Positions 4,997-43,871 of a DNA stretch of 64,000 bases are shown here, in pieces. Origin of the DNA: Owenia fusiformis (taxonomy: Eukaryota > Annelida > Polychaeta > Sabellida > Oweniidae). A program made the position numbers and the translations under genes. Every line of letters begins with the position of its first letter. Positions within the stretch are counted from its first letter, which is position 1. The stretch lies in assembly GCA_903813345.2 (NCBI GenBank), contig CAIIXF020000012.1:3389318-3453317 (forward strand), in the 5' to 3' direction. The notes under the pieces are model-generated. The model ran no database searches. It worked only from the letters and a program-made list of their open reading frames with translations, and was not told the DNA's origin.

Positions 4997-5896
4997 CTAT
5001 TCGCTGCGATAGAGTTCACCGTTAATGTACAGTTTATCATATCTCAATACAACTCTATGTCCCTTTTTCTTGTTCTCCATCAAAACTGGTAATAGTGCTT
5101 TACGACGCTGTTGGATCTCTGGAGGGTATTGCTCATCCATTCTGTATCTTGTATTTGCTAGGTTCCTCACATGATTATACAGTACTTGTTTTCCATTATA
5201 TGGATTCAGATGACATATTATTGGCCTTTCTCGCTTATCATCTCTCTTTGGGCCGTTTCTATGTACTCTGTCCACTTTAACCGTCTCCTTTGGATTACTT
5301 ATCTTCATCACATTTTCGAGAAAGGTGTAGAGTTTTTCTTTGGTTTCTTCTTGCGTCTCATCTCTCTTTTCTGCAATTCCAAAGAAGAGCATGTTCTCAC
5401 GCATCTGCATGTGCTGTAGTTTGATCGTTGCATCTTTCTGAGTTTGAATGTCATTTTTCTGAGACAGTAGCTCCTGGCTTTGTTTATTGATTAGTTGTTT
5501 CATTTTCTGATTCTCTTCCTTCAAATCGTTAATTTCATCACTGGCGAATGTTAATGCCTTCGATAAGTCCTCAATAACAGAGTTCATTGCTTTAACGTCA
5601 GCTTTAGTTGCGAGTTCATTAAGGTCATCTTTTGTCGCCATTTTGTCCATCTTGACAAGTAACGCTTTTACCCATACTGGTTCAGAGTCATTTGAATTTT
5701 CAGGTGTTTCAGACATATTATATTTAGGAATTGGGGATGTTCTAAAGTCACTGTTGTCTGAGTTTATTGGAGTGTTTGGTTTTGTACGTTTTTCAATGTC
5801 AATGTTTTCAGGGGTATTTCTAGGCCTTTTCTTGTCAGAAGTAGATTTAGGAGTCTTATCTATTGGAAGAAACCATGAGTCAATAGTTTTGCTCAT
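4997..5896 (-). CDS. LINE-1-type ORF1 protein (RNA-binding chaperone)
   Basis: This is an uninterrupted 299-residue single-exon frame starting at ATG 5896. Residues 1-75 are Lys/Pro/Ser-rich and probably disordered. Residues 80-165 are heptad-rich coiled coil (ATKDDLNELATKADV, then LKEENQKMKQLINK). Residues 166-245 look like the RRM-like core (ENMLFFGIAEKRDE, VKVDRVHRNGP). The C-terminal domain ends in LYINGELYR. L1-type ORF1 proteins trimerise through the coiled coil and bind element RNA. No matching endonuclease/reverse transcriptase frame follows downstream (below 4997), so this is a truncated or ORF1-only copy. The intact frame suggests recent insertion or domestication. Its N-terminus, SKTIDSWF, resembles a degenerate PCNA-interacting box. 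Confidence 0.8.
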   Translation of the reverse strand: MSKTIDSWFLPIDKTPKSTSDKKRPRNTPENIDIEKRTKPNTPINSDNSDFRTSPIPKYNMSETPENSNDSEPVWVKALLVKMDKMATKDDLNELATKADVKAMNSVIEDLSKALTFASDEINDLKEENQKMKQLINKQSQELLSQKNDIQTQKDATIKLQHMQMRENMLFFGIAEKRDETQEETKEKLYTFLENVMKISNPKETVKVDRVHRNGPKRDDKRERPIICHLNPYNGKQVLYNHVRNLANTRYRMDEQYPPEIQQRRKALLPVLMENKKKGHRVVLRYDKLYINGELYRSE

Positions 5897-7877
5897 TTTA
5901 AATCACATTTTAAATGTACTTACAGTTTATTGATTGTGCATATCCATTACAATATGGCTGTTCAATATGAATTTTATCAAATTCAAAATTTACTCCCTGA
6001 TTGAGTCAGTAACACTATTTATATCCAATTATTTCCAGTAATGTTCTCTGAATGTATCCTAAGTGTGTTTGTTTACATTTTAAAACACTTATTTATGATT
6101 GATGGTCATTATATCCACCAAAATCTGACTTTTTTATCAGAGCCTTTGTTTGCAGCTTTTGCTTACTTGAGTGCTGCCATCTATCGAGTTTTCGAGTATA
6201 GCAACATATCTATTAGAACTGAGGCTGTATGTCAGAATTTCGGCAAAGTTCGGTCCTTTAGACTATAAGAAGAATGTATAAGCAACATAAAAGTGCAAAC
6301 AGATTCAAAATTGGATCAGTATTGCCAAAGTTATTAAACTTTCGAGGCAGCTACTGTGAATGTCATTATTTGACAATTATATTCAGACATCTTACCATGG
6401 ACGTTTAAAGTGTTTGTAGCTTTGTCATTATTTGGTCAATAGAAATGATATTGGTATCAAATTAAACCTTATATAATTTCCTGTACGATTACAATATTCA
6501 ATTATGCAAATTGCATAAATTGTGACGTCATCAATCTATTTTTGTTCAGAATATCCCAGTTTAGCAACATATATATTAGAACTTAGGCCGAATGACAGAA
6601 TGTGTGCATAGTTTTGACCTTTAATTGATGAGTGGAAGATAGAGGCAACATTCGAGAGACAATAGATTCAAAATTGGGTTCGAATTAGCAAAGTTATTCA
6701 GCTTTTGGGGCAGCTACTGTGAACGCCATTGTTTGACAATTATAAAAATATTACAATAACAAAAAAAGAAACAAACATAGTTGTTTCAATCTTATTGAGT
6801 AAAAATGTGCATGACTTGTTCATATTTTTCCATTGAACTGTACATGAAAGTATGTGGAAATGTTACATGTATTTTGACTATCATTCACAGGGGCCAAAAT
6901 CATGAGATCTTGATCTTGTATTTTAAAATCTAATGTTATAATTGACCATACACTGTCAATGATCCATATGAATACATAGTAATGCTTTAATTATGCTATT
7001 TTGACATATGTTGACTAATATACATATCAATATTTACAAAATTTATATGGAAGAGTATTCCTGGTTTCATTTGATTTCTAACATGTGAAAAAGCTGAAAA
7101 CAAAATTTTGTTGATATTTGGACATAAACTAGATAAATCTTAATTACCATTTTATATTTAAAATACAGATAGAGTGTCAACTTTAGAACTTAGATGTTAA
7201 CATTTCCAAAAATCGATGCCAAAAATAAGTCAATCGGTGGCAAATGGCGAGCCCACACAGCTAATGTGACAACTACTTTAGGGGAATTTTTTAACCTTCA
7301 AAATCCTTTGTGATTCAACCTTAGAATGATTTATGTTATAGCTTTTCTGAAAATGGACTATAAGCATAAAGTAGGTACTTAGTGAAGCAAAATGAAAAGT
7401 AGTTTTTATATAATTTTACATAATATAACCTCTTCGATATGCAATGAAAAATGATGACAAAATCCATACAAGAGCTCAGTAGTAGTACTAGTAATCCTAA
7501 AATTAAAGTATATTGATCAAAACAGCCACGAAGAAAAAATGCCCTTTAAAATATTTTTGAAAGAACTGATTTTTGTAGGACTTTAACTAACCCTTCCTCC
7601 ATCTGCATGTAGGTTTCCCCCATCTATCTCTTATGTCACAAAGTATGTGTGGTATAGGACTTATAATCTGAATTTGTTTTAAAAGGTTTACAAAATATGA
7701 AATACCAAAAATCTATGAAAAATTAATGAGTCTCAAATGGATGGATTTCAGGTATATCCCCATACACTATGGATACCATTCAAAACTGATACTGATTCAT
7801 ACTTTTTATATTGTTATAATTTTTTTACATTGCATGGATTTCAATAGAATTTTAGCAGAATATTTAGATGTAAATTT
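5897..7877. other. Non-coding stretch upstream of ORF1
   Basis: I see no gene. The left part may be the 5' region of the ORF1-bearing element. The stretch contains the imperfect direct repeat listed at 6150-6745; the remainder is AT-rich without recognisable structure. Confidence 0.5.
6150..6745. repeat. Imperfect direct repeat of about 200 bp
   Basis: Two copies, near 6198-6380 and 6552-6745, share stretches such as tagcaacatat, attcaaaattgg and ggcagctactgtgaa in the same order. The spacing is about 350-360 bp. They are diverged and have no coding potential that I can see. Confidence 0.6.
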
Positions 7878-15230: not shown

Positions 15231-15236
15231 TTTATT
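15231..15236 (-). promoter_or_regulatory. Candidate polyadenylation signal
   Basis: AATAAA on the minus strand lies 206 bases past the stop codon of the terminal protease exon (15442). It is the first such hexamer seen downstream and would give a short 3' UTR. Confidence 0.5.
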
Positions 15237-15441: not shown

Positions 15442-16231
15442 CTAGCGCTGACACGTTCTGTCTTGATTACAAGGTGTACTTATAACATGTGATTCTTCTT
15501 CATAATAAAAAAAGCCATCATAGTCAAAATCTCCAGTGCAGCCGTCTTTTGGTTCAAAACAAATTCTTTTTCGCAATATCTCACAGTTATCTCCATCTCT
15601 GTCAACACATCTATATCTAGAATCAGTCCACTTGTTGCATGACTCAACAATACATGTAATTGTTTCCACATCAACCAATAACCAATTGGCTTCGTGCACT
15701 GTCCCTCTAGCGTGTGGACAAACACCATTACCCAAAGGTTTTGGGCTGTTGCAATACCTCTGGCGACGTTTTGTTCCATTGCCACAACTTACTGAACATT
15801 GTGTAAACTCGGAAAAATCACTCCAACCTCCTTCAACATCTTTGCAGGGAACTGATTCACATTCTTCTTTGTGTATATCGACTATATATCCAGTAGCTTC
15901 GTCTTTTTGTTTTATCCCAAGAGCCCCATTACAAGTGCCCTTTCCTATTGGCGCAGGATTGTTACACACACGGACTCGCGATCTTGTTCCATTTCCGATA
16001 TTGCCACAGCTTAACGAACATTCTGTAAAGTCACTAAACTCACCCCAACCACCAGGTGTCGTGATTTTATCTTGGATCCAGTCAATGTAGTTCGAAACAT
16101 TAGTATACACACCAGATTGTTCACCACAGGACATTGCAGGGCCCCAACTTGTAATGCCATACTGAACCCAAACGTTGCTATTTTCTTTCCTGCACATATA
16201 TGGCCCACCAGAATCTCCAAAACAAGTGTCT
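15442..16231 (-). CDS. Protease gene 1, terminal exon: trypsin C-terminus plus TSP1 repeats
   Basis: After the acceptor (cttatag) the exon continues the previous one in phase 2 and opens with DTCFGDSGGPYMC. This includes the catalytic Ser in GDSGGP and the Asp six residues earlier that gives trypsin-like S1 specificity. The S1 domain ends at GVYTNVSNYIDWIQDKI. It is followed directly by two thrombospondin type 1 repeats (GGWGEFSDFTECSLSCG and GGWSDFSEFTQCSVSCG) and a cysteine-rich tail, probably a degenerate third repeat, to the stop. TSP1 repeats bind glycans and matrix proteins, so the tail probably localises the enzyme. TSP1 modules placed after the catalytic domain are unusual. Confidence 0.88.
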
Positions 16232-17367
16232 CTATAAGTATATCGATTATTATGTTAGAATTAGAAATTAATATAATTTCCTCATTTCCCCCTCCCCTTT
16301 TATTGTTTCATTTGAATAAAATAAAAACCGTAGCTCTATACCTTTAACAGTTTGCCATCCATTCATTCGTCCATCGGTTCAGGAAATTAACAGAGTTCTT
16401 GTACAAATGGACAAATTGTCTTCATATTTTGTGAAAATGATGGTATTTCCTTCAAAATCTGCTATTATATTTCTATTGTACATGTTATCCCGTACCCAAA
16501 GTGCTTAACAGTGCACAATGCAGTTGTATAAAATAGCGTGTTCTGATTGACTGAAATTGGACACAAATTGCCTAGCTATGTGTGAAAACTGTTTAGTTAC
16601 TACATTAGGTACCTATACAACAAAATTAGATACAATTACAGGCATGGTCAACAAGAATCAATTAAAAACATGATTTTGTCATCTTGCTTCATCAAGCTTC
16701 GGACCTGCCTTCACAAATGGACTTCATCATTTGAGAAATCCAATATTCAACAATGTCTGGACAATATCTAGAAAAATATATGATTTTATGACATCTTGCA
16801 ACTTTTCATGGAAGAGAGTCGGTCGCACATAAGGGAGGTGAATGTTAACGTTTTTAAAGAGCCTGTACGTGAGCATGTAATATTTCGACCCCGAGGATTA
16901 CTGTCCCGCTTTGAGCTCACTTTTCCAGAAATCGAATTCCAGTTATTTTCACTATACTGTTATAATCAACCTGCCAATTTTACAGGGACGTAATTACAAT
17001 CATTTTCCGTATTCCTTTATACTCAATCGGGAAAGTAAACAGTACAAATGGGATAACTAATCCACAAAAGACCATAATTCTACACGTCCACGTATTAGTT
17101 TTTAAAAAACGTGTAAAAAGCTCATGTTGTAATAAGCTGTTTACAGGGAGTTCAAAAAAGAATTATCTTCGTACAATTCTTGAAATACACAGCCACTCCC
17201 AGTAAATAAACACATGTCGTATAGCGTCCACCTCCAGGTCTCTGATAGAGCCTATATAGCTAACTACTGAATATAGGAGTCAAGAAGTACGTTACCTTAG
17301 CAACGCATCCCAACAAAAATGATATAATAAATGCGACAAACTAATGAGATTCTCAAATTTGTCTTAC
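16232..17367 (-). other. Intron of protease gene 1
   Basis: The boundaries are GTAAGA at 17367 and an AG ending at 16232. The intron interrupts the protease between the Met-Ile-Cys-Ala segment and the catalytic-serine loop. No repeat or gene was seen inside. Confidence 0.7.
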
Positions 17368-18100
17368 TTGTCATTGTCATGTGCACATATCATGTTATCC
17401 GTAATCTTTTTCCTATCAGCGTCGAGATCAAACTCACATGTTTGCCGATAAGGAATCTTGACTTCTCGTAAAATATTTGATCCATTAATATAGAATACCG
17501 CCTGGTGCTTTATAGATTTCTTCGATGCTATACCCCATCCGATGGCGTAGCACTGTTCTTTTGCAGGCGGAGGTGCTCTTTTTGTCGGTAAAACAATTGG
17601 TGTGATTATGTCGTTATAATCTAGTCTACGATATAAAACCAGTATGGCAATGTCATTATCTAAACTAATGGGGTCGAATTCATCATGTCTTATCACTTCC
17701 CTTACATGACGCGTTTGATCTCCTTTGTCCCTAAGATCATGTATCCCAGCTCTGACTTGGCAGCTCTGACAGCTTCCTCCATGACTCCTAACAAAACAAT
17801 GCGCTGCAGTTAAAATGTGTGACGGAGATAAAACTGTCCCGCCACAGTGACCTTCAATACTATCGATGGAGACCATCCATCTCCAATTATAGGGAGGCTT
17901 AACCTTAAGTCCCCCGATGATTATTGGTACATCTTCTTTTATCCGTATGCCTGGATGTGGACACGAATCTGGTCTACACGTATTATATTCTAACTCGTGC
18001 AGCATACATGTAGCATTGTGTTCGTCAACATCAATACATTGACGCACGCTGGCCTGTACACTGCATCCTCCAGAACATGATGATACGGCACTAAGGTCCC
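17368..18100 (-). CDS. Protease gene 1, exon: partial TSP1 and trypsin domain with His and Asp
   Basis: The exon starts in phase 1 after tcatttgtag and ends before GTAAGA in phase 2, joining in frame to DTCFGDSGGP. The N-terminal part is the cysteine half of a TSP1 module (SAVSSCSGGCSVQ, then YNTCRPDSCP). The S1 peptidase domain begins at IIIGG and holds the catalytic His (ILTAAHC) and Asp (SLDNDIAIL), the CYAIGWG loop and MICAHDNDK. With the next exon the full triad is present, so the enzyme should be active and trypsin-like. The residues before IIGG are KEDVPI, with no Arg or Lys directly at the expected activation site, which is atypical for a trypsin zymogen. Confidence 0.9.
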
Positions 18101-18157
18101 CTACAAATGACAATCGTTACAGGATTAAAAATATGAAAGTATATGTTGCAGTTATTA

Positions 18158-18927
18158 CAGGGTGTCCAAAAAACAGGACCGTAAGAAAGTTAAATAACTC
18201 GGACAATTTTGCATGTTTTGCCTTGAAATTTCAGAATTATTTAGTTCTTTCGATGTGAATTTCGTTGTAAAAGTTTGATAATAATCTCCCAGTTGAGTCA
18301 AAATCTACAGTTCCTTACAAAGCATGCCCAAAATGTGCACCTCTCCTCTCTATGCACAATTCAATCCGACGAACAAAGTTGTTGATGATCTTCCTCCACA
18401 CATATTTTTCTGAATGGAGAAGTTTATTCCAAGAACAATTGAAACTGGGGCTTACATCCTCCTGATGAAATGTTACAGCATTCATTGCATTCTGAACAAT
18501 GCATTGCCTGGGTGGCAATGACGAAAAATGGAATCATCGGTCTTTTTGATTCAAAGGTGACTGGGGACGTTCTTTCACCATGAACAAGGACCAGTAAGTT
18601 CTCGCTAAGTTTTGGAGTTCACTAAGCCCCAGAAGGGACATCTAAGGAGATAAACAGTGGTTTCGACAAGCCAATACCACATTGATACATTGATATGTAT
18701 AGGATAGGGTCATTAACAACTTTGTTCACAGTATTCGTTCGCGTATAGAGAGGAAAAGTCCCACTTTGGGCTTATTTTGTAAAGTACTGTAGCTTTTGAC
18801 ACAATTGACAGATTATCATCAAACTTCCACAACAAAATTCACAGAATAAACTAAATAATTCTAAAATTTCGAGGCAAAATATGCAAAATTGACCGATTTC
18901 TTACGGTCCTGTTTTTAGGACACCCTG
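18158..18927. mobile_element. Deleted Tc1/mariner element in an intron
   Basis: Inverted ends cagggtgtccaaaaaac (left) and the complement with one or two changes (right) extend to gaccgtaagaaa. A TA precedes the left end; the right flank has lost it. The element lies in the intron between exons 19348-19482 and 17368-18100 of protease gene 1. It keeps only the C-terminus of a transposase (see 18315-18518), so it is an internal-deletion derivative. Confidence 0.75.
18315..18518 (-). pseudogene. Mariner transposase C-terminal remnant
   Basis: The frame ends SEKYVWRKIINNFVRR, then IELCIERRGAHFGHAL. This matches the typical end of Tc1/mariner DDE/D transposases, where a helix with an Arg-x-x-x-Cys-Ile segment leads into Gly-x-His-Phe-x-His. 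The catalytic core is absent, so it cannot be active. Confidence 0.6.
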
Positions 18928-19347
18928 CTCGCTTTACTTAATACCAATTGACATATGTATGCTCAAAAAGTGTCATTTTGGAACTAAAAAATTATTTTGA
19001 AAAAATTGACAATTTATCCCAAAATGTAAAATGTACACCCTTTGGGTCACGTTGACCTCGATTTGACCTTTGTTGACCTACTTTTAAAATTTTTCTCTGA
19101 AGAGGTAATTACATAAGACATACGATTTGCGACAATACTAGCATTATTGAAATCACACATGTAATAAAAAATAACAGAGGGGAACCAAATGATCACAATC
19201 CCCTTTGCGACTTAGGGTTATAAAACGTTGCAGACATTAAGGTTAAAGAACATAACCACTCTAGAAAACATTAGACGTCAGTGTCAACAAATTGGAACAA
19301 AAATCGTGCATTTCCTGACGATTTCCAGTAAATAATATCATTGTTAC

Positions 19348-19482
19348 CTCTATGGCCTCTATCACATGGACTAGTACAGATTCGTTTATTTGGTGATATA
19401 CATATACATTGCCAGCATCCATTCCAGTATCCAAAACCTCTTTTTTGTAGACCGTATCCTTCAAGATTACACTCTCTGCATT
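19348..19482 (-). CDS. Protease gene 1, exon: VWC-like cysteine module
   Basis: This is a 135-bp exon, phase 1 at both ends, between tattatgtag and GTAACA. It reads CRECNLEGYGLQKRGFGYW, then NGCWQCICISP and ICTSPCDRGHR. The C-x-C pair after a Trp/Gly-rich segment resembles a von Willebrand C or pacifastin-like module. It joins in frame to the Cys-rich exon before it and to the partial TSP1 of the catalytic exon after it. The domain call is tentative; the exon itself is well supported. Confidence 0.78.
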
Positions 19483-19694
19483 CTACATAATAAACGTAAA
19501 CAATGTATACGATTAGATTAAAAGCCATCTTGAATAGCCATACAATTGGGCATATATTTAATGAGTTGTTAACGTTTGCTAAAATCACTTGATTCAACTA
19601 TCTCATTTACTCCGTCCCTCCCCTCCGCCAAGACTAGTACTAAAATCGTCTTTCCCTTCTGATCACAGTAAGTCGTATATTGGTAGACACTTAC

Positions 19695-20093
19695 CTTTTT
19701 TATCGGTACACACCGTTTGGCCATTCTTTTCACACGTACACATATTGCATTTGTCATATAAGCTGCGCCATGGCTTAAAACCATAGTCGTGGATTCCCTC
19801 TTTGCTATCAACACATGTGATATTCAAACAGCATATCGAATATGTATTGTCAGATGCAATATGGCATCTGTAGCCTTTGGGACACGTTACGCTTCTTCCA
19901 CCTCTGCATTTTTCTGGTTCGATACCATTCGGTTTCATAAGTGGTGAACACTGCGGTATGTCTACTTGGCAACAACTGAATTCCTTTTTGTTACAGGCAA
20001 ATGTATTTGGACATTCCAATTCATATTTTTTGTTACATGTTTTATTAGGAAATTTAGTTGCCTTGTTATTACACGTCTCTCTGTTAATATCAG
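19695..20093 (-). CDS. Protease gene 1, exon: two lustrin-like repeats and a VWC-like unit
   Basis: This 399-bp exon is phase 1-1, between gatctgttgcag and GTAAGT. It holds two lustrin-type cysteine repeats, the first through CNKKEFSCC and the second containing VTCPKGYRCHIASDNTYSICC-like spacing. After these comes a module of the form C-x-C-x-x-NG-x-x-x-C (NMCTCEKNGQTVC). Lustrin-type repeats are known from molluscan shell matrix proteins and many secreted invertebrate proteins, where they act in protein-protein contact or protease inhibition. Here they form part of the non-catalytic stalk of a protease. Confidence 0.85.
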
Positions 20094-20595
20094 CTGCAAC
20101 AGATCGTATACAAAGTGAATGAACATCGATTAATACTTTTATTGTGAAATATTAAAACACTTTTCACGCATCACACATAATCCAAACCAGAATACCACGA
20201 TACAAGTTATTCGTACAGCGCCATCAAAAGAAATGTACGTGGACCCATCCTTGCGACTTTTCAATTCAACTTGATTTTGTCTCTAGCATTTATATTTTAA
20301 GATGTACTACAAATATCAATCAGTGATTCAGTAAGGCAATAGCAAAATGAGTTAGGAGTATTTCAATATCATTTCGATCCATGATTTTGCCTTGTAACCA
20401 CCTTGCAACGGCAAATAAATCGAATTAGTGTGATTGGAAAATATGGGAGGGTAGAATTTTTATCTAAATATTGGAAATGGTAATCATCATATTTCTGTTG
20501 TTTGATTTGCACAAATATTCAGGAACTTGAATGAAATCAAAGGTATCAAGTAGTTTTTTTAAGAAACCTGTGAAGAGAATGTGACTCGTACATAC

Positions 20596-20769
20596 CACAA
20601 ACAGGACTGTCTAGTGAGGACCATGTGCCATCCGACAAACATTCCTTTTCACTTTTCCCGTTGATGAGTTCATAGCCAGCTTTACATGAAATGGTCATAA
20701 TTGATTTGTACGTACGTTTACCTTCGATGCGGCCATTCATAGGAGGTTCAATATACGGACACTCCTTGA
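20596..20769 (-). CDS. Protease gene 1, exon: sushi (CCP) domain 2
   Basis: The 174-bp exon is phase 1-1 and encodes a complete complement-control module: KECPYIEPPMNGRIEG, ISCKAGYELINGKSEKEC, then GTWSSLDSPVC. The four cysteines and the Trp of the sushi fold are in place. Sushi domains mediate recognition and complex assembly in complement and clotting proteases. Flanked by tttttaattgtag and GTATGT. Confidence 0.9.
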
Positions 20770-20992
20770 CTACAATTAAAAACAAAGTGATTAAGGCGTT
20801 TCCACACCGATTACTATTTTTGGGTGAATTTTTGGTGGCTTTTAATAACTTTTAAATAAGACGTGGACTCTGAAGAGAATTTGAATTTTCTTGTAGAACT
20901 AGCTGTAGTCTAGGGTGATATCAATACATTTTAGCGAAATTGATTTTTATGAACAATAACAATTTGTCGAGATGTAGAACAAAAATACATAC

Positions 20993-21172
20993 TTGTACAC
21001 TCTGGAACTCTCGCTGACCATTGACCATTGTCTTGACATTGGATTTGATTCCGCGAACCAACAATTTCATAACCTTCCCTACATGTCACCACTATTACTG
21101 ACGAATCATTAGTAGATCGTCTTAACCATCCGTGTGTTGGCGAATATATAACTGGACACCCAGTATCAGTAA
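20993..21172 (-). CDS. Protease gene 1, exon: sushi (CCP) domain 1
   Basis: The 180-bp exon is phase 1-1 and encodes TGCPVIYSPTHGWLRR, VVTCREGYEIVGSRNQIQC and GQWSARVPECT, a complete four-cysteine sushi fold. It joins in frame to the second sushi exon 223 bases on, so the pair probably arose by exon duplication, though they are now well diverged. Confidence 0.9.
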
Positions 21173-22232
21173 CTGTTGACAAACGTAAACGATGTGAACA
21201 CGATTTGTCTAGCTGATTTATTTATTATATATTCCATCTCGTTTTACTGCCATTTACCAGTCGTGCCGTGATAACAAAATTCAAAACTGATAGCGGCCAT
21301 TTTTACTCTTCCGAATTTGAATCGCGAGTTTTGGTCCTATAACCAATCAGAAAAAATTCACAACATACTAAAGGTGATCAAGATATAAGTTCAAATGTTT
21401 TGAATTGCTATAATGAATTTAAGACCAGTCAAAATGTCAGACATTAACAACATCTTCGTCCTCGTCCTCATTAAAGGTTAATGTCGTCGCTATTGCTATA
21501 GTATATCAATCATTCCAGTGGTACAGAATTGCCGTGTGCGCGCAACACATCAAAGATTCCAATATTTAAGCGAGTCTAAGCATGCGCCGAGAGTCTGAAG
21601 ACGAAGAAGCAAAGTCAAATGAATGCAAAGGGTGAGTCGATTCGATGAAAACATTTTTCAAGACATGATGGGCAGTATGATAGTATTATTTTTATTTTTA
21701 TTTTATTATAATTAATTAGATAGATTAATTAATTAATTATGATTATCTTATTATTACTATGTTTTATTTTATTCTTCTTTATTCAATATTTAGTACATAC
21801 AAAATACACAAATGGTATGGTCATAGAGATGTGTGATGACTTGATAGCATATACTTTGATCAGGCATTGGTCTGGTTTTGAAATCGTTTTATCCCACAGC
21901 GAAAATTATTACCATGAGCTGGGATAACTCACGTTCCAAATTACCAAATCATTTTATCCCATCGTTTTTGAAAGCAGAATGACGGGATACTGTGTTTTGA
22001 AAAGTGAGCCCCTGCGACCAAGTGCTCGACAAAGAGCTAATACGGGATGAAAAATTTCTACATGCAACTATCCCGAACACCCCTATAAAATTACGTAACA
22101 AAATATTTGAGGTCTCTTTATCACGTACTGTGTCTGAAAGTTAGTGGAATCGGGACTGATAATCAGATCCTTTTTATTTGCCCACTCTGCATATAAATAT
22201 TATCCCCCTACAATCCAACTTAACGTACTTAC

Positions 22233-22436
22233 TGTTACAACTGCATGGTATTTTTTCTCTAAATATACAAACATCCTTAAATCTCTGATACAGAACTGCG
22301 GCTGTCCTAAAATGGCCATGGTATCCGAAGTTACAGCCCGTACTTCTTGATATTCTACCGACAAGACAATTTCCCCCTGACAAACATTCTGAGCAAACGA
22401 CAGGACAATCGCTCCAGTCGCTCCATTCATTTCTAT
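22233..22436 (-). CDS. Protease gene 1, exon: N-terminal TSP1 module
   Basis: The 204-bp exon is phase 1-1, with GTAAGT as donor. It reads NEWSDWSDCPVVCSEC, then GGNCLVGRISRSTGC and ends IPCSCN. The WSxW signature and Cys pattern mark a TSP1-like module. Two AGs precede it; I chose the upstream one because it keeps phase 1. It is the most 5' exon of gene 1 that I can support. The signal-peptide exon was not found in the repeats up to 24836. Confidence 0.82.
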
Positions 22437-22594
22437 CTAAAAGTTGATAATTATGAATGATAATTAAAGAGTAAACATCGATTTCAGATTATTTTCGGAA
22501 TACGAATAAGGTTGTCTCACGTAATATAAAACTCTACATTGCAAATATTCGCTTTTCAAATGCCTTGCTTGTTTCATCTCTGCTGTAGGATAGC

Positions 22595-23815
22595 ACAAAA
22601 CAAGGCATTAACATGACAAAATGGCACCACCTTGTTGCTCACAATAGTATCAATTTTAGTCAGATTTGAATTTCTTAGAACTTTTAGATGATTTTGAAAA
22701 AATTGAAGCAAGTTTTGAAATGACCCTTTTTGACCTTGAGAAGGTCATTGAAGGTGGAATCTCAAATCTAAAGTCAGATTTGAACTTCTGAGAACTTGAA
22801 GATGACTTTGGAAAAAATTGGTCAATTTGAAGCAAGATGAAAAAAGACTTTTTTGACCTTCTTAACCTTGAGAATGTCATTGAAGTTCAAATCTCAAATC
22901 TAAAGTCAAATTCAAACTTCTGATAACTTGTAGATGGTTTTAGAAAAAGAATTGGTCAATTTGAAGCAAGTTGAGAAATAACCTTTTTGACCTTTTTTGG
23001 CCTTGAGAAGGTCATTGAAGGTCAGATCTCAAATCTAAAGTCAGATTTGAACTTCTTATAACTTGTAGATGGTTTTTCAAAAGTAAGGTCAATTTGAAGC
23101 AAGTTGAAAAAATACCTTTTTGACTTTTTTGACCTTGAGAAGGTCATTAAAGGTCAAATCTCAAATCTAAAGTCAGATTTGAACTTCTGATAACTTGTAG
23201 ATGAGTTTTTCAAAAAAGGGTCAATTTGAAACAATTTGAAAAATACCTTTTTGATCATTGTTGACCTTGAGAAGGTCATTGAAGGTCAAATCTCAAATCT
23301 TAAGTCAGATTTGAACTTCTGATAACTTTTACATGATTTTGAAAGTCATATTTGAACTTCTGATAACTTGTAGATGATTTGAAAAAAATGGTCAATTTGA
23401 AGCAAGTTGAAAAAATACCCTTTTGACCTTTTTTAACCTTAAAACAGTCTTTAAAAGTCAAATCTCAAATCTAAAGTCATATTTGAACTTCTGATAACTT
23501 GTAGATGATTTGAAAAAAAGGTCAATTTGAAGCAAGTTGAAAAAAATATCCTTTTGACCTTTGACCTTTTTCGACCCATTAAAGGTCAAAACTTAAATAT
23601 AAAGTCAGATTTGAACTTCTGGGAACATGTAGATTTTGAAAAAATTGAAGTCAGTCTAAACAGTATTTGTTAAGTTATTTGAAGTTGTAAAAATTTGTTA
23701 CAGAAAGTTACAGAATTTGTTATAGCCGATCACCAACCGCCGATCGCCGATCGCCAACCGCCGTCAAAAAAGGGAGACTATAACAATATGTCACCACTTT
23801 TTTGTGGTGGCATAA
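22595..23815. repeat. Minisatellite-bearing dispersed element
   Basis: A unique head (caaggcattaacatgac, then caccaccttgttgctc) is followed by about eight diverged tandem units of roughly 100-130 bp. Each unit has gaccttgagaaggtcatt, caaatctcaaatcta, agtcagatttgaacttct and gataacttgtagatg. A unique tail then holds gccgatcgccgatcgcc and a hairpin, caccac-tttttt-gtggtg. The head recurs at 3133 and, loosely, 33905. Head, tandem core and hairpin tail resemble pearl-type or non-autonomous Helitron elements of bivalves, but the class is inference. Confidence 0.65.
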
Positions 23816-23911
23816 AAACAGAAAACCCTAAAGTGAAATCTTGTATCAAATATCTGTTGAATTAACTTCACTCAATTTCATTTAATAAGATACATGTCTA
23901 AACTATAATCG

Positions 23912-24787
23912 AAAAAAGTTAAGGACCAGTGGTTTTCCTAATGGGTTTCCATGTTAACCCCAATATTTGTTTGAACAACTATTTTCTAAGCGGGGAACAA
24001 AAGAAATCCAAATAAAGTAAATAAATCTGTATCTTGATTCTATTCCCTATAAAGTCTGCAACGTTTCAATTTTATATCTCCATTACATTGGGTCAAAATT
24101 TGATGTCAAAATTGATGAGTTTCATGAAAAACAAAAATGACAGATCCCATGTTAAACAAATAGGGAATTGTGGCTTAGGGGCAACTCAGATTTTGGAATA
24201 TCTATTCAGTAAAACATTTGTTAAAAATACTTTCTAAGTAGAAAATTGAATGATTTTACATGCTAAATGTCTCGCTTATGTTATTAAAATTAGCGATATG
24301 GAGCGTTAGAGTAATTTCGACCACCTCACTGAACCACCTGTGTTATTTCAATAAGAGGATCATGAAAAAAATATTTAATTTGAAACCATTAACTTTTGTA
24401 AAGCCTGGACAATTAAATCATATGTTTGTCGAGTGGACAATTTAGCAAATTTAATTATATCTTACAATTTCAATTTTGAGAGCAATCGGATGGATCGTTC
24501 CTCATATGACTTATGGTAACCCAACCATTCCCCATTTGTTTAACATGGGATCTGCCATTTTTGTTAAATCTCATGAAATTCATCAATTTTGTCATCAGAT
24601 TTTGAACCAATGTAATGGAGATATAACATTGAAATGTTGCTGATTTTATAGGGAATAGAAGTAAGATACAGATTTATTTTCTTTATTTGGATTTATTTTG
24701 TTCCACGCTTAGAAAATAGTCATTCAAACAAATATGGGGGTTAACATGTAAACCTATGAGGAAAACCACTGGTCCTTAACTTCTTTT
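23912..24787. mobile_element. Fold-back element with about 260-bp inverted arms
   Basis: The left arm (about 23912-24168) begins agttaaggaccagtggtt and is repeated inverted at about 24530-24787. Shared internal stretches include atctccattacattgg and cagatcccatgttaaac. The central 360 bp is not inverted. No transposase is present. It lies just downstream of the stop codon of protease gene 2. Confidence 0.75.
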
Positions 24788-24836
24788 GAGGAGTATATTA
24801 TAAAAATTATGAAAGTGCAGCTCCAAAATGAAAAAG

Positions 24837-25007: not shown

Positions 25008-25537
25008 CTAATACAAATCAATAATGCACCATTCAAAAGTTTGCGAGAGACCCCCATATTTTTGACTGGATTTGTTTCGTCCGCTACACTTGAAGAACTC
25101 ATGATTTGCAAATGATCTGTAAATTCAGTGACTTAAAAATCTCTCAAGTCGAGAACGGTACAATACACCCACCTACATGTCGGACACAGTTTCAGGAGGT
25201 GATATTGCTGAGTAAAACCCCATGGAGAGAGGAATTTAAGAATGATACTGAGCGGTGTTTGCTTGTCGAGATTGTTTTCACCCTCCCTCCGAAAAAAGTC
25301 GCACCCCCGCGCTGTACTTGTATTCATAGCCTTGTCATAATTTAAAGTAGTTGGTAGACTATGAATAAAAGTGAACGATGTAACGAATTAAAGTTAAAAG
25401 CAAATATGGTCTGCCTTATATAGGGGCGTAAAATACGTCATTGCATAAATTATAATACAGAGCACTTTCGACGCTTACTATGTGATTTGTTTCCGTCAAA
25501 CTCAACAATTTATAAGCGCGCTCATTCCGTTAAAGAT

Positions 25538-27083
25538 GGTCGTACATACAGCTTTATTCCATGATGGAGAAATTCCATGCAACCTGATTGGTCCATGTGA
25601 CTTAAATATGTATTGTATTTAATCGCACATTCCACTTAGCGTGGGATACAGAGTGAAAATGACGTCACCGTTGGGATACGGTTCAATATCCCAACGCCCC
25701 GGATTTCCATCCAGGATATGACTGTTACTGAAAAAATCAATGGCGATTACTTTACACCAACGCATGCTTATCTTTGAATTTTGCTATAAATATCTGATTC
25801 AAACATCAGAAACTTACACTGTGATCACCACAATCAATAATTTTAGGATAAAAACGCAATTTTGTAAATATAAGAAATCAATTTAAAACATACACATTGT
25901 TTTCATGAACTAATTAAAATCCAATATGGCAGACGAAAGTCGAAAAAAACGTTTCGCTTCACTGCACTTCCAGCTGATGAAATTGAAGAAAAAAGAAAGA
26001 AATTCAAACGCCTCGTATAATACAATTAAAAGCAAACAACAAGGCCATAAAGATTTTGAAGGAATATGGATGTAAAATATCTCTGAGGTGAGAAGGTTGA
26101 TCTGTTTCTCCGGCCCCAAGCCAAGAGACTTGATTTGGGCGAGTTTTGTATGATTTCTCGTGAAATACAGAAAATATTCTTCCCTTGAACGTCTGTATTT
26201 CACTCTGCTAGCACATCGTGAAATACAACCTTCTCGGGAAGAATATTTTCTGTATTTCACTCGAATCATTGAATAACTTATATAATATTCCAACTTTTAT
26301 TGCACAGATACAAGGTCGTACATACAGCTTTATTCCATGATGGAGAAATTCCCTGCAACATAATTGGTCCATGTGACTTAAATATGTATTGTATTTAATC
26401 GCACTTTCCACTTAGCGTGCGATACAGAGTGAAAATGACGTCACCGTTGGGATACGGTTCAATATCCCAACGCCCCAGATTTCCATCCAGGATATGACTG
26501 TTACTGAAAAAATCAATGGCGATTACTTTACACCAACGCATGCTTATCTTTGAATTTTGCTATAAATATCTGATTCAAACATCAGAAACTTACACTGTGA
26601 TCACCACAATCAATAATTTTAGGATAAAAACGCAATTTTGTAAATATAAGAAATCAATTTAAAAGATACACATTGTTTTCATGAACTAATTACATCCAAT
26701 ATGGCAGACGAAAGTCGAAAAAACGTTTCACTTCACTGCACTTCCAGCTGATGAAATTGAAGAAAAAAGAAAGAAATTCAAACGTCTCGTATAATACAAT
26801 TAAAAGCAAACAACAAGGCCATAAAGATTTGGAGGAATATCGATGTGAAATATCTCTGAGGTGAGAAGGTAGATCTGTTTCTCCGGCCCCAAGCCAAGGG
26901 ACTTGATTTGGGCGAGTTTTGTATGATTTCCCGTGAAATACAGAAAATATTCTTCCCTTGAGCGTCTGTATTTCACTCTGCTAGCGCATCGTGAAATACA
27001 ACCTTCTCGGGAAGAATATTTTCTGTATTTCACTCGAATCATTGAATAACTTATATAATATTCCAACTTTTATTGCACAGATA
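25538..27083. repeat. 776-bp tandem duplication with internal palindrome
   Basis: Copy 1 (about 25538-26313) and copy 2 (about 26314-27083) are direct tandem copies differing at scattered bases only. Each holds a palindrome near its right end (gtgaaatacagaaaatattc and its complement around 26160-26265 and 26933-27034). Each also has a tgacgtca site in non-coding context. It lies in an intron of protease gene 2. Confidence 0.8.
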
Positions 27084-28639
27084 CGAACCAATAGTACAAC
27101 CGTGCCCCTTCACGGCTCATTTTTGTCAAAACTATCAGGGAATTGATACTTTGCCAAGCGGCCCTTGCAAAAAGTTTCCTTGAAAATATATGTTGTGATT
27201 TTGTATATTTTAACTCACATGGTAGAAATATTTTGCAATGTGTGAAAGGAATTTAAGCCCAAGACTCAGTGCATTTTGACTGCTTCATTCAGCTCAATAA
27301 ATAAGCGGTAATGCAAAGATTTGGAAACAATATCTTCATGATGGTTCAGCACACAGTGCACTGGGTCCAAGGCTAAAATCCTCAATTCTACTAGATCACA
27401 TCTTATGACCATATATGGCATCCCTAATTAAAAAAGATATTGACAAACAAATTACGGCATGTGTATCACTCAACATTCATGAGCATTAGCCTGCCTGGTA
27501 ACAAGGAATGGATACGGGGGGAGGGCCCAGGAGTCGGGAATATCTGACCAGATTTATTGCCCCTGGGGTGGGGAAATTGACACGTTCATTTGGCCTCAGT
27601 GTAAGGAATTTTACAGGCCCAACATTTTTTCGCAAATTCCCTATCCATGCCCGCGTGGGGGCATCTCACACAAACGTTTTAATGGTGCATAACAAATATT
27701 ATAACATACCTATGATGATGTTTGGCATAAAGTGTTCACAAGGGCAAAATATAAGTTTGGAAAAGCCCGCGCCCGCTAACTTTCTGATTGGTCAAGGCGC
27801 TGGTGCTATTACACGTGTACATACCGATCAACTGAAGATAAAACTACGCGAGCAATTTTTCTAAACTCATTTCAGTAACCATCTCCAATTACTTTATATA
27901 AGTTTATTTATTAATCGTGTTTATTGATAAGTTCGTTTCCTTAAAGTTGTTTAGAAAATTGCTCGCGTAGTTTTATCTTCAGTTGATCGGGCGTAGCAAT
28001 GCATGTTAAACGCAGAGACGGGAACAGACCATCAATTTTAGTTTTTTAAACCCTTTGTTGGTCAATTAGATAAAAAAAAACGATTCTCTCAATAAATCGT
28101 TTATATCACTATCGTGGCACATATTTCCTCGGTTCTCGGAGATCGATTTCCCTCCCAAGGTCGGACAATATATCACTGAAAACCTCGGCCATATATGCTT
28201 AAATAGTGACATAACATCTAAATACTGATTAATCGTTAATGGTTCTGTTGGACGTTTTAACTGACTAACAGCAACGCCAAAGCGTAGGAAATCCCAAACA
28301 AAAATGGCGGCCATTCTGTAGTCTAAGTGCAAAAATCGTAAAATAACATGCAGAGGCCGCCATTTTTCAAGATAGCTGCCATGTGTATCTTAAATATCTA
28401 CATTTTTAACTTTATTGACGTGCTATATAACTTTTTACAAATAAAACATATTGCTATGGAAGTTGAATGATGGTGGAGGAAGGTGTAAAGCTAGCCGCAC
28501 ACCAGTGGGATATTGTCTGACTTTGTCCCTTTGTCCGTTTTGTCTCAGCAGACTTCAGAAGAGTTTCCCATAGGCGACCATTAAAGCGTTTTACCCTGTA
28601 TCTTAGTAACGGACAATATTTACGCTTAGTACAACATAC
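27084..28639. other. Intronic stretch without a gene
   Basis: I see no supportable exon. A 118-codon open frame at 27508-27864 has no recognisable motif. The only structure is the inverted repeat listed at 27824-27990. Confidence 0.5.
27824..27990. repeat. Inverted repeat with 42-bp arms
   Basis: Arms 27824-27865 (ccgatcaactgaagataaa, then cgcgagcaatttt) and 27948-27990 are near-perfect complements around an 82-bp centre. This is probably a miniature inverted-repeat element. Confidence 0.7.
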
Positions 28640-28732
28640 CACTTTGATCGGGAGAGACTTGTCTAGCTTGCTGTTGCAATATTACAATGTGTTGTCCACC
28701 GAAATTTTGAAGACAATCACCCCTTGAATCTG
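28640..28732 (-). CDS. Candidate exon of protease gene 2 (loop after GWG)
   Basis: A 93-bp open segment, phase 1-1, is bounded by tttgttttcaatatcaag and GTATGT. It joins in frame to the preceding exon as GWGVTPG-ADSRGDCLQNF, followed by GGQHIVILQQQARQV. The Leu-Gln plus hydrophobic strand is what S1 domains have after the GWG loop. It cannot join the terminal exon in frame (phase 1 to phase 0), so another exon with the Met-x-Cys-Ala segment is still missing, or this is a chance open segment. Confidence 0.4.
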
Positions 28733-31700
28733 CTTGATATTGAAAACAAATGAAAATTAGCCTGCTATAAGTAGTCTCCTTAAAGATTCTCGCAATCTTT
28801 ATCCAATCAGCGTTTGCGAGTGTGTCGGCTCACGTATAAAAGGCGAATCCAACTCAAATCCATGCAGGGGTGTATGAGGTACTCGAATAGGAAAGAGCTC
28901 GTGAAATCTGATTTTATATGCACATGCTCAATGTTTACACATGTTTGGAGTTATTGAAGAAAATGTGATATGGGTGTGGTTCCGAATTTGAAGTCATTGC
29001 TGGAAAATATGATTTTAATACGTGAAATTATATCTATAAATACAGCACTAAAAATAACAGTACACATGAAGTACATGTATGATTGTGTTCAGAAATGTTT
29101 GAAACCCTTACGGAAAATTCTGTCCGCATTTTGTCACCATTGCTCTTTCTTCCCGCATTCTAGTGCTGTTTGAATGAATATATTAATTAATGTATTTCTA
29201 ACTAAAATATATCACTTTTTTTATAAACCACAAACATTTAGATCATAAAAAATTATTCAATACTTGAGTGAGCACGATATGCAAGGGTTACTAAGTTGAC
29301 ACAGTAAATGACCACTGATATTGTGTTAGTCCATGCACACAGCGTATTCTGCTAATACACATTCGCTAACACCCCCACTTTCATAGTGAAGTGACTAATT
29401 GGTTTATGTTTACGTTTTAATGTGTTTTGGGTTCCTTGTTACAGCAAGGGGGGCCAGTAAAGTAGACCAACATGTTTGCATGGCAAATTTTGATCGAATA
29501 TGTGAGACACTTTAAATCACTCTGCTGTCATTAGAAAATATATCATTTATTCATCCTGAAAATGTTTTCAGATAGACCAGTACCTCTCCTATACAACTAA
29601 TCCTAATATCATTCACTAAACGTAAAATGGCATTTTGCCCGGGGTCCGCCATTGCAGCAAACGTTGTCCCAATTTGTCCGATGATGTCTGGAGTACAGTG
29701 CCATTTTGTCGAAAAATGATCATATGATCGTCAAGTGATAATATACCTTGAAAAGAATTAACATATTTCATTCTTTCACGGGACATAAAGGGACACAAGG
29801 AGACCGGACAAAGTCGGACAACATGAGACAAACGGACAACGACGGACAATGTCCCTTATTACCCGATGGAAATGCCCGAGCTTGTCCACTCTATAGCTCC
29901 CTTGATGTTCGATCACGCCCCTTTGGTATATGGCTAGCTTAAGACATTGCTGATTTTCACGTTCGATTATGGTTTGGGATAGTTGGAGTTTGTACAAATA
30001 GATATCTTATCTTTCTTCCTGTGTTCTGTTTTGAGACATACCGTTACACTTTTGAAAAAGCTGGGGTCAGTTAAGCAGTATGTCATCCAAGGAGATATAT
30101 CTTGCTTATCCAGGAGATGACTACATTATGTTTTGATTGATGAAAATTGTGTTCAGACCATTTGAAGGGTTTATATAAAGAAGTTATTCACTAGGAGGGA
30201 TTTGATATGTAAAATATAATCATCCAACAGGTGAATAACGACCTTATATCATGATCGAAAGTAATATGTAGCTTTTAAAGTCCTCTGTTGAATGAGATAA
30301 ACAATTGGTTGACTCTTAGGAATATAAGGGCCTATCATCCCATCCTGATGTACATGAGAATTTAAGGAAAAGGAAAAACATAATGCTCATAAAAATAATA
30401 CTAATTTAGATTATTTTAAATCAAAAAATTGAAAGTATGAAATCTTCGGGAAAAAATGAAAAAAATTTAAAAGAATTAATTCTAAAAATGAAAAGATTTT
30501 GAAAAATGAAAATGCTTTGAAAAAATGTAAAATTTATGAATTTACCCGGATAATATCAATATCATCCCTGATATCATCCCTCTAATCATGATATCATCCC
30601 TGATATCGCCACTGTCTCGAATATGTGATTTATCACTTGCTATTATATACCTGATATTGCTCTGACCATTGTTTAATGTATGGTATGAAAGAAATTGTAT
30701 TTTCAGCAGTGATGTACCAACTACCAAGCAAAGAAAATTTGGACATTTTTCATGACACACGTGGTAAAACAGAGCCTGACCATGACATGCCAAAAATAGT
30801 ATCCATACATTTTTATCTTTCACATTTTTACAAATAACTATTTTACCATTATCTGACTTTTTGTGGATATGTAACTTAAGTAATAAAATTCCAAACCGAA
30901 CATGCGATTCCTCCGCCCTCGCCAGTAGTTTCAAGCTTGTCGCTTTTAATTTCGACTAGAACGTTAAGTGCTCGTAGCTTTGATGAGGCTTCCCCATTAG
31001 AACCTAAAATCAGCCAATCACTAGCAATTAGCGTTTCTCTCTAACTATTTCTATTATTTCGCTCTAAGGGGATCTTGAAGCTCATCAGAGTCTGAAAATG
31101 AGCTTTACAGGGAGAGTGAAAGTCAGATTTCAGGGGTTATATATCATTAGTTCAGTAGCACTAAAACTTTATTATACGTATAATTGATAAATCAATAGTT
31201 TCAAATTTAAAAAACACAAATGTGAACTCTTTAGAGAATAGCAACATTAAAACATATTATCTAAACACAATTTTACCAAAATAATTTCAAGATACTTTTA
31301 TTTGTGTGGATCACATTTAACAAGAACTATGACACAAAGTCTTGAAATGTATATCATTAATACAACAGTTGATTGACCAGATTAAATAGTCCCGAAGAGA
31401 TTAATCCTAAGACAGGTGTAAAAGGGTAGGTGGTCCTATCGAACTTTGGTCCTACTCTCTTTTGATTCATATGGTGACCCAATAACAATTATTTTCCTTA
31501 TTATGTATACACAGTCAGGGGCAGTAAGGTCCACAAGGAAAGGGGACCTTAATCCCCAGGGGACCATAATTTCTTTTACACCGGCATACACTTTTGTTGA
31601 CTTTGCCAGATATTGTAGTGGGTGGTGAAATAGTGTACCTATAGCCTTTAAAACATTGATGTAACCGACCAGATGCTCTACATAACTCGACCAAGAGTAA

Positions 31701-33034
31701 CATTTTAAATGTTTGGAAGTACTTTGAATTGAAAAATAAACAAACAAATTACTATATTGCAACAGTATATAAAAATAGAAACATATATAATAGTCCTAAC
31801 TTTTGTTTATTTCAGACAGTTATGTATAATGTGCAGCAAAGCTGTGGCCTTTTGGGCTCTTATATAATTTAGGGAGTTTAAGCCATGTTAACTTTTTCAA
31901 AGATAACATGGCAGGGAAGCATCAAAATATAAGAAGCCACAGATATGATAACTTAACTACAAAACAAACTAAAATTATACAAAATCTGGGATATGTATAA
32001 GTGTTTCTATTTTTACATATACTATTTCAATATGGTCCTTTGATTGCTTATTTTTTAAATTCAAAGTACTCATTAACATTTAAAATTTTACTGTATTCCA
32101 AGTTTTTCTGTTTAGCCGCTTACATTTGTTACATAATAGACTAGATGCGAGTAGAAATGATCTTGATTTACGTCATTTAATATTCAAAATTCAGTCAAAG
32201 GGATGTCATATTTGAAATCTACATGTAAATACATCAAAAAATATGGTTTCGAAAATTGTTTATCAATTTTGAAAATTTAATATTTTTTGAAAATGTTACT
32301 TCTAGTTCGGGTTGATTCCCCATAGACCCCATATTACAAAATAACAAAAAGTGAATTATCTTTTCTTGTATTGGACATAACTTTTTTTACTGGACATACT
32401 TTCATTTGCAAGACTATTCGATATATTATGGCTATATGAAAATTGAACCACTAAAACAGATGTAAATTCAGTTAAAGGGAACTTTCTACTGTACCCAACA
32501 TGCTACATCATCTAACCCGAGCGAGCCACCTGGTGGTCAAACAGGTAACTACATACTCGCATTTGCATTATTAATTTGTGGGTTTTCTCCCTATTTCAGA
32601 AGTTTTACACTTCCTCCTGGAGTGGGTATGACATGGCTATACTTTATCTAATAAAACAATTTGGCTTTTGTTGTATAAAAAAGTCAGAAAGAAAATTTAA
32701 ACAATTTTAGTATTATTTTGTGGAATCAGCCAGAAAGTTTAATCATGAAAATATAAATACAACGCACGCAAATGTTAAAAAATATAGCCTCTTAGTGAAC
32801 GTGAACCACGCCTAAAAATAAAGCATAGTACCATAGTCCCACCTTACTTTTCGCCTAAAAATTGTAAAATTTGGATTAAGTAGAAGGGATAAAAAACATA
32901 TTTTCATCAATGGACTGATTGAAGTTTTGCTTATAATGGCACATAGAATTGGACTGGTCCTTTATGTTTTTATTTACCTCTCATATAGTACAGTAAAGTA
33001 CTGAGTATATTGACCTTGAATTAATTAAGCTTAA
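28733..33034. other. Intronic stretch, low-complexity and repeat fragments
   Basis: No exon is supportable. Short repeats of tgatatcatccc lie at 30546-30605. A 231-bp dispersed repeat lies at 32338-32573. Several open frames of 60-130 codons lack motifs. Confidence 0.45.
32338..32573. repeat. Dispersed repeat, SINE-size, copy 2
   Basis: Second copy of the repeat at 11326-11556, in the same orientation, with shared blocks tatgaaaattgaaccac, gttaaagggaactttcta and gagcgagccacct-like sequence. It has small insertions relative to copy 1. Confidence 0.65.
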
Positions 33035-33165
33035 CTGTTCCACAACTAGTTACTTTGATGGGACGTCAATGTAACAAAATGGATGAACTTCTTTGATACG
33101 AGTTTTTTGTTTTCTCGATTTAAACCTACTTGTATGTCAAATTGCGGATTATCATTTGGCATAAA
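33035..33165. repeat. Dispersed repeat, copy 2
   Basis: Same orientation as 1648-1772, with ctgttccacaac, atggatgaacttc, ttttttgttttctcga and ttgcggattatcattt in common. This copy continues where copy 1 is cut by the CACGGTG-ended element. Confidence 0.7.
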
Positions 33166-33405
33166 GTTAGACAATGAGAAATGCTCTCGGTTTGGAATCT
33201 GATTTTTAGATAAAGCTGCAATGCATGTATTTAGACCATCGCTTTTGTTACATTGACTTGAGTCGTTATTTTCGTTATTTTCGTTTAAGTTATTTTCGTT
33301 ATTAAACAGATTCTTGGAGTTAATCCTTTAAATCCCACGGATAACGGAACTATGTAATAATATACCTCAGTATTGAACTTCGGTTCATTGTCAAAATAGA
33401 CTTAC

Positions 33406-43733: not shown

Positions 43734-43871
43734 GCATATCACTTGCGGGTGCACATGACTCACACAGAGTGAATAATTTTGGGAATATAAACTGATACTG
43801 TGTAAAGCAAATAATTTATTTATTGCTAATGGGAGATTTGGAAAGAATAGTGAAAATATTACATGTTTTAA

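Follow-up and report, generated by a model that had tools for sequence, protein, structure and literature searches.

We have analysed a stretch of 64,000 nucleotides from the annelid Owenia fusiformis (contig CAIIXF020000012.1, positions 3,389,318 to 3,453,317; hereafter the window, numbered from its first letter) and find that its minus strand encodes a trypsin-family (S1) protease domain with thrombospondin type 1 (TSP1) repeats placed after it. We are nearly certain of an S1 protease with TSP1 repeats downstream of S1, a conclusion that rests on a single exon and on a family of paralogs with the same arrangement. With moderate confidence we further read the locus as a single minus-strand gene of at least 15 exons, running from 60739 to 15442, that would encode a secreted double protease of about 1,374 residues produced by the fusion of two gene families. 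The predicted chain would run, from its N terminus, signal peptide, two lustrin repeats, TSP1, a first S1 domain (S1(I)), a TSP1-like module, two sushi domains, two further lustrin repeats, a VWC-like stretch, a Cys-rich stretch, a second TSP1-like module, a second S1 domain (S1(II)), two TSP1 repeats and a Cys-rich tail.

Seven exons encode S1(II) and the TSP1 repeats behind it

The core of the locus consists of seven exons, A to G, all on the minus strand. Exon A (22436-22233, phase 1-1) is TSP1-like and has relatives at three other loci (L025, L026 and L027). Exons B (21172-20993) and C (20769-20596) each encode a sushi domain matched by Pfam, and exon D (20093-19695), seen as an open frame and by Pfam, encodes two lustrin-like repeats and a stretch resembling VWC or pacifastin. 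The Cys-rich exon E (19482-19348) is matched in all eight of the intron-bearing loci L017-L024. Exon F (18100-17368) begins with a weakly TSP1-like stretch and continues into the N-terminal part of S1(II) with His57 and Asp102, while exon G (16231-15442) encodes the C-terminal part of S1(II) with Asp189 and Ser195, two TSP1 repeats (about 16053-15844 and 15831-15637, recognised by Pfam and by a family profile), a Cys-rich tail and the stop codon (15444-15442). A candidate poly(A) signal on the same strand, AATAAA, lies some 205 bases past the stop (15231-15236).

That these seven exons join in frame had been proposed from an earlier inspection of the letters alone (the original prediction), and this proposal holds: every acceptor has AG, all six internal donors have GT, and the junction phases from A to G are 1,1,1,1,1,2, with only F/G in phase 2. 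The joined exons give 870 stop-free codons, for which the chance expectation is about 1e-29 at the local base composition (a rough guide, the exons having been picked as open frames). The catalytic triad and the trypsin-type specificity Asp, which had likewise been proposed, can be read in the joined protein as LTAAHC, DNDIA and GDSGGP, with DTCFGDSGG supplying Asp189. We also find, as had been stated, that the TSP1 repeats share an exon with the end of S1. Because both lie within exon G, the order S1 then TSP1 is independent of any splice.

Checked against Pfam, the domain order first suggested for these exons stands in its main parts and is weaker in others. Trypsin (5e-49), two Sushi (2.6e-15) and two TSP_1 (6.6e-12) stretches are confirmed in the A-G protein, the two matches to Sushi (PF00084) totalling 57.0 bits against a cut-off of 20.7. 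The lustrin assignment is marginal, as Lustrin_cystein passes its cut-off (28.1 bits against 27) only in a search limited to the Cys-rich segment, and the proposed VWC domain has no Pfam match in the A-G protein, where only a sub-threshold match to Pacifastin appears. Exon A and the start of exon F are only borderline TSP1. Exon A has no Pfam match and its relative in L027 scores 20.0 bits against the TSP_1 cut-off of 21.6; with a family TSP1 profile built from 29 paralog rows, the window excluded, exon A scores 7.4 bits (shuffle maximum 5.7) and the start of exon F 7.7 bits (500 shuffles: 95% point 3.8, maximum 14.0). Both C-terminal TSP1 copies, by comparison, carry W-x-x-W/F, CSxxCG and six Cys, and score 94.6 and 74.6 bits with this profile. 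Cys spacing hinted at a third TSP1 repeat in the Cys-rich tail, a candidate that we rejected, since it scored 0.2 bits (shuffle 95% point 3.1, n = 500) and had no Pfam match.

A large family of paralogs has TSP1 placed after S1

We searched the species' own genome (498 Mb, 525 contigs) with the A-G protein and scored the best 52 of 691 candidates, so that the counts that follow are lower bounds. Among the 56 matches listed, each of which is an exon and not a gene, six are the window's own exons; at least 32 of the 50 others cross the boundary between S1 and TSP1 (from residue 660 or earlier to residue 700 or later, by hand count). The 31 loci that we took as a sample of this family, here called family 1, were covered upstream for a few hundred bases to about 6 kb. 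Their common plan is signal peptide, two lustrin repeats, a VWC-like stretch, in some a Cys-rich stretch, a TSP1-like stretch, S1 and TSP1. There is mostly one C-terminal TSP1 repeat, with two in the first gene of L017 and five in L015 (G000:C4:26456800-26461000).

Conservation was read from an alignment of 33 rows, comprising 32 paralogs and the window (one L023 copy is not included, nor is L033, whose exon-G piece starts too late, and L026 has no F piece); the rows were picked by likeness to the window protein, which somewhat favours conservation. His57 and Ser195 are kept in all 33 rows, as is the TSP1 Trp, and Asp102 in 32, while Asp189 is found in all 31 rows with a letter at that column. 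The TSP1 Cys at 679, 697, 708 and 732 are kept in 30-32 of the 33 rows. Positions 683 and 737 are less constant, with Cys in 24 and 20 rows, respectively, and gaps in nearly all the others. In one row, L014, Asn replaces Asp194 (SNSGG) and the I-x-x-G-G stretch has been lost. The whole of S1 lies in a single exon at 16 loci (L001-L016), which cluster on the tree yet need four changes and not one. The window row is placed among the intron-bearing rows without strong support (82/69), its best identity being 51%, to L031. We note that L023 (G000:C5:25196500-25204800) holds two very similar family-1 genes in divergent orientation, which probably represent a recent inverted duplication; the activation site in its aligned row is K/VIYG.

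The window copy departs from the family-1 plan in that its lustrin exon lacks a signal peptide and is preceded by sushi and TSP1-like exons. Among 32 lustrin rows, a simple hydrophobicity rule places the signal peptide and the lustrin repeats together in one exon in 27. The exceptions are two L011 rows (from a locus that begins inside the open frame), L024, one downstream L034 row, and L032, where a plausible signal peptide falls just short of the threshold. In the window, by contrast, exon D begins at a splice acceptor, and no Met occurs from the preceding stop up to its lustrin repeats. Profiles for sushi, exon A and VWA gave no match at any of the 31 family-1 loci within the upstream stretch covered, and we therefore rejected sushi as a feature of family 1. 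These profiles include window sequence, except that for VWA, which was made from L026 and L027, so that matches on their own sources are not independent; Pfam, the genome search with exon A and the 29-row TSP1 profile are independent of the profile sources.

Relatives of exon A belong to a second family

A genome search with exon A (the best 150 of 327 candidates were scored, and counts are again lower bounds) matched most of this exon in at least three other places, L025, L026 and L027, at 35-40% identity (E 9e-8 to 5e-6). In all three an exon for the C-terminal part of S1 lies 0.4-1 kb upstream on the same strand. This S1 exon ends with Trp-Ile, four or five residues and a Gly codon split by a phase-1 donor (G/GTAAGT, G/GTAATT and G/GTAAAT), and the acceptor of exon A is likewise phase 1. 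Sushi exons follow the exon-A relative in L025 and L027, and VWA comes after. Pfam finds two VWA domains in L026 (8e-21 and 5e-21; L026:8253-8104 and 6577-6425) and two VWA pieces in L025 (about 3e-6 and 2e-6; L025:6348-6482), whereas the assignment in L027 (L027:6001-6129) rests on likeness to L025, the Pfam VWA_2 score of 13.8 bits being sub-threshold. No further domain was located past VWA in the stretches of L025-L027 examined. Ahead of S1, L038, which lies upstream of L026, has a lustrin match and a weak TSP1 match. The plan of this second family is lustrin, TSP1, S1, TSP1-like, sushi (0 to 6 seen) and VWA, and it is this family, with its run of S1, TSP1-like, sushi and VWA, that the sushi exons and exon A of the window match.

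VWA behind S1, a TSP1-like module and, in some, sushi recalls the parts of complement factor B in a different order. L035 together with L027 has two S1 domains in tandem, and L036 and L037 each have one S1 followed by the first exons of a second, although these could be neighbouring genes instead. In two copies the catalytic Ser is replaced by Ala (L025:1757-1927, GDAGSP; L027:455-607, EDAGSP), and these S1 domains are presumably inactive, likely pseudoproteases.

Upstream exons and a first S1 domain

Exons A-G are probably only part of a gene. Taken as a gene in their own right, as in the original prediction, they do form a chain in frame, but the coding sequence probably begins before exon A, since in-frame exons for S1(I) and for a candidate signal peptide are present upstream. 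Exon A was rejected as the start of the coding sequence because an S1 exon precedes it in the three relatives and no signal-peptide exon was found in 22437-24836, the latter point being weak alone.

Upstream on the minus strand lie a candidate signal-peptide exon (MESRVLLLHIVVGCISFFPLYC; 60739-60673, with phase-1 donor TA/GTAAGT), two lustrin-like exons (58063-57839, phase 1-1, scoring 19.9 bits with Lustrin_cystein, below the cut-off of 27; and 56794-56570, whose protein is 89% identical to that of the first) and a TSP1 exon (42501-42337, phase 1-1; TSP_1 21.2 bits, cut-off 21.6). Four exons for S1(I) follow: 34872-34668 with His57 (LTAAHC; phase 1 in, 2 out), 33755-33406 with Asp102 (NDIAL; phase 2 in, 1 out; donor GTAAGT), 31003-30897, which ends in GGGIACS and has Ile as residue 189 (phase 1 in, 0 out; weak donor GTTTGG), and 25007-24842 with Ser195 (GDSGGP; phase 0 in, 1 out; weak donor GTTGAC, beyond which read-through meets TGA). 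The phases of S1(I) were read off the splice sites. The exon at 31003-30897 was recognised from its shape in the frames of relatives, similar stretches in L035 and L038 being matched by eye; earlier scans of the window and relatives for this missing exon, which demanded Cys, had given no convincing candidate, and the exon is without those Cys. Joined, S1(I) matches Pfam Trypsin (1.4e-31), with His57, Asp102 and Ser195 all present.

The 14 exons from 58063 onwards total 4,058 nt, in which the only stop is the one at 15442, and with the signal peptide the chain has 15 exons, from 60739 to 15442, and 1,374 residues. In this protein Pfam finds two Trypsin, two Sushi and two TSP_1 stretches, and the frame and phases of the predicted splices permit two S1 domains in a single chain, as in polyserases. 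A scan for upstream exons had returned five candidates, three of which were used and a fourth for its Met-led part; the fifth (52577-52326) was left out, as it lies opposite a transposon-like open reading frame (ORF). We note a partial, broken duplicate of the TSP1 exon, with a stop inside, just upstream of the intact copy (42647-42558, minus strand).

One fused gene or two neighbours

The exons, frames, triads and family conservation are observed directly, and the splices from S1(I) to exon A and from exon C to exon D are predicted from frame, phase and relatives. That exon A follows an S1 exon with a phase-1 donor in all three relatives supports the first of these joins. At the second, where exon C meets exon D, neither half looks complete by itself, and both borders are phase 1. 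We place the proposed fusion point here; on the simplest account, a gene of the second family would have lost its VWA part and a family-1 gene its signal peptide, and the two were joined. Class 1-1 modules such as TSP1 have been described as inserted in phase-1 introns (PMC3927616). If the fusion is real, the locus would be an example of a joining of two families at phase-1 borders that related genomes could date.

Several observations weigh against a single fused gene. The donor of the Ser195 exon (GTTGAC) is weak and TGA follows after one more codon, so that this could be a last exon, and AATAAA or ATTAAA hexamers stand behind S1(I) at 24697, 24687 and 24678, although A+T-rich DNA has many hexamers of this type. 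A second weak donor is GTTTGG, at 30897. Exon C could read through to a stop (ORF 20546-20851), with a poly(A)-like signal at 20143, and the junction of C with D has no parallel in the loci examined, its matching phase being a one-in-three chance. Because the scan that found the upstream lustrin and TSP1 exons demanded phase 1-1, their phase match is by construction; the tree has no starred small group containing the window row, and exons may be missing from the chain. Signal-peptide candidates, moreover, arise at a background of about one per 5 kb (six in roughly 29 kb: two each in 58064-64000, 43000-56500 and 25008-34600). The candidate at 60739 may therefore be due to chance, and we place less weight on this part of the argument for fusion.

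These points bear most directly on the possibility that there are two neighbouring genes, one (signal peptide, two lustrin repeats, TSP1 and S1(I)) stopping at the TGA past 24842 and the other, comprising exons A-G or D-G, having its own promoter and an unseen first exon, possibly because a gene that was once longer has decayed. The weak donor, in-frame TGA and poly(A)-like signals at the end of S1(I) would fit such an arrangement, as would the fact that family-1 paralogs mostly have their own signal peptide. We nevertheless consider it rather unlikely, in that the homologous donor is good in all three relatives and exons A-C are open and spliceable, so that a carrier transcript would be needed. 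In 22437-24836 and in 20094-20595 the scan turned up no signal-peptide exon that has a phase-1 donor, which carries little weight given the background rate and a total of 2.9 kb for the two gaps. The gene as originally predicted, here taken as exons A-G transcribed from their own promoter within an intron of the upstream gene and supplied with a signal peptide by a further exon in that intron, seems to us improbable: the chain A-G is intact and there are two signal-peptide candidates in 25008-34600, but their donors (CTGTAACT and ATGTACTT) are weaker than that of the exon at 60739-60673, and in three relatives exon A is preceded by an S1 exon. We give very little credence to a decayed or misassembled locus, in which pieces of two families would lie side by side with no joint product. 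The two weak donors, the broken duplicate of the TSP1 exon and the transposon-like ORFs within an intron are of the kind such a locus might show, but the 14 exons run for 4,058 nt with no stop except the terminal one and the triads are intact in both S1 domains, which argues against it.

Activation, specificity and a possible mode of action

Both S1 domains have the hallmarks of subfamily S1A (His57, Asp102 and Ser195 in TAAHC, DxA and GDSGGP, with a Pfam Trypsin match), and they differ in the pocket. S1(II) has trypsin-type specificity residues, Asp189 and, in SWG, Gly216. S1(I) does not, GGGIACSGDSGG giving Ile189 and SYV giving Val216 (both by eye). Ile189 together with Val216 suggests an elastase-like pocket, and we suggest that S1(I) has one.

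The canonical activation site, Arg or Lys before I/V-x-x-G, is absent from S1(II), which reads EDVPIIIGG at this point. At column 423 of the family-1 alignment Ile is present in 24 of the 30 rows with a letter and Arg or Lys in only four (L023, L028, L029 and L030), three rows having a gap, and column 422 is basic in none of 31. Two cut registers are possible for S1(II), before the first or before the second Ile. Residue 122 is the usual Cys partner of the tether to the propeptide, and none of the 33 rows has Cys at the two columns before LP, the place expected for this partner. With TSP1 behind S1 and no Cys at the usual residue-122 tether, a freed fragment would keep its targeting domain.

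What we propose about secretion, matrix binding, activation and any substrate is drawn from the sequence. The protein might be secreted as a zymogen and anchored to matrix, mucus or cell-surface glycan through its lustrin, sushi and TSP1 modules, and cleavage before S1(II) would release an S1 fragment that retains the TSP1 targeting repeats. Our tentative guess, set against roles in gut, gland or adhesion, is a surface- or mucus-bound protease acting in defence or on matrix. A more speculative idea, and one we think quite unlikely, is a two-step switch in one chain, whereby S1(I) and S1(II) would activate each other and the TSP1-type repeats behind each S1 would keep the freed enzymes at the surface. 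The site ahead of S1(I), K/IRN, could be cut by the trypsin-like S1(II), and the site ahead of S1(II), VP-I-IIGG, where P1 would be only aliphatic or Pro, could be cut by S1(I). If this were true, the fusion would have brought together two enzymes, each with an activation site that suits its partner.

Relation to known proteases

C1r, C1s and the MASPs follow the plan CUB-EGF-CUB-CCP-CCP-S1, factor B and C2 the plan CCP(3)-VWA-S1, and Limulus factor C combines sushi domains with LCCL and a C-type lectin domain; all of these have sushi and S1 and end with S1. ADAMTS proteins carry a zinc metalloprotease domain ahead of their TSP1 repeats. In the joined window protein Pfam finds no CUB, no EGF above cut-off, no LCCL, no lectin domain and no metalloprotease, and S1 is not last. 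VWA is likewise missing from the window (two-sequence profile) and from the 1,374-residue protein (Pfam). Whereas factor B has VWA before S1, the second family described here has S1, then TSP1-like, sushi and VWA.

The closest parallels that we have found in print combine some of these modules. Trypsin-TSP_1-ShK proteins of four cnidarians (PMC6767649) and an ShK-TSR-trypsin protein of Aiptasia (PMC5446238) are alike in having S1 and TSP1 in one protein, but in the Aiptasia protein trypsin is C-terminal with the TSRs before it, whereas in the window gene TSP1 comes after S1, and the accessible text of these two papers mentions no lustrin or sushi with them. Nematostella has a Trypsin-Lustrin_cystein protein with lustrin repeats and S1, as here; among the taxa sampled in that work, which included Capitella and Branchiostoma, the combination is given, in the portion available, as confined to Edwardsiidae (PMC6767649). 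The Owenia genome, by contrast, has tens of genes with this combination, and in them TSP1 comes after S1. In Tenebrio (PMC11172050), a Sushi(2)-SP-Sushi(2)-SPH protein has more than one S1 domain with sushi between, like the fused gene that we favour, SerP11 is a TSP-bearing trypsin, and some proteases have non-basic (Leu) activation sites, a likeness to S1(II). As far as the accessible part of that paper goes, however, the regulatory domains lie in the propeptide, no lustrin is mentioned and the later S1 domains are inactive homologs, whereas both triads are intact here. Human polyserases have tandem S1 domains in one chain, and the available text mentions no TSP1, sushi or lustrin (PMC1435904). 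Complement parts are covered by PMC11312191.

The original prediction held the architecture to be unfamiliar. This needs qualifying as regards S1 followed by TSP1, which is common to a large paralogous family, and it is borne out as regards the order and combination of modules. Trypsin with TSP1, with lustrin and with sushi is each in print for other animals, and the novelty is in order and combination; we did not find the module order of the window gene described in the open literature, PMC11797021 included (figures, supplements and most subscription papers lay outside this scope). We note that targeting modules placed after the catalytic domain would be kept after activation without a disulfide tether, unlike in complement and clotting factors, and that this genome has tens of such genes, the majority of which lack the basic residue usual at the activation site. 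Alongside these genes, a second family has complement-like parts (S1, TSP1, sushi and VWA) in another order, and some of its copies lack the catalytic Ser.

Repeats and transposon-like sequences in the window

Between S1(I) and exon A lies a tandem direct repeat of about 132 bases (22655-23644), with six copies of a 137-base stretch, five of which are 72-84% identical to the reference copy. Between lustrin-like exon 2 and the TSP1 exon sits an element that by eye has the look of a LINE (47174-55223, plus strand), with ORFs resembling reverse transcriptase and endonuclease (among them 52932-55223 and 51897-52931). Long ORFs of low complexity or coiled-coil-like character at 4997-5902 (minus strand) and 49634-51022 (plus strand) are, again by eye, perhaps the first ORFs of retrotransposons.

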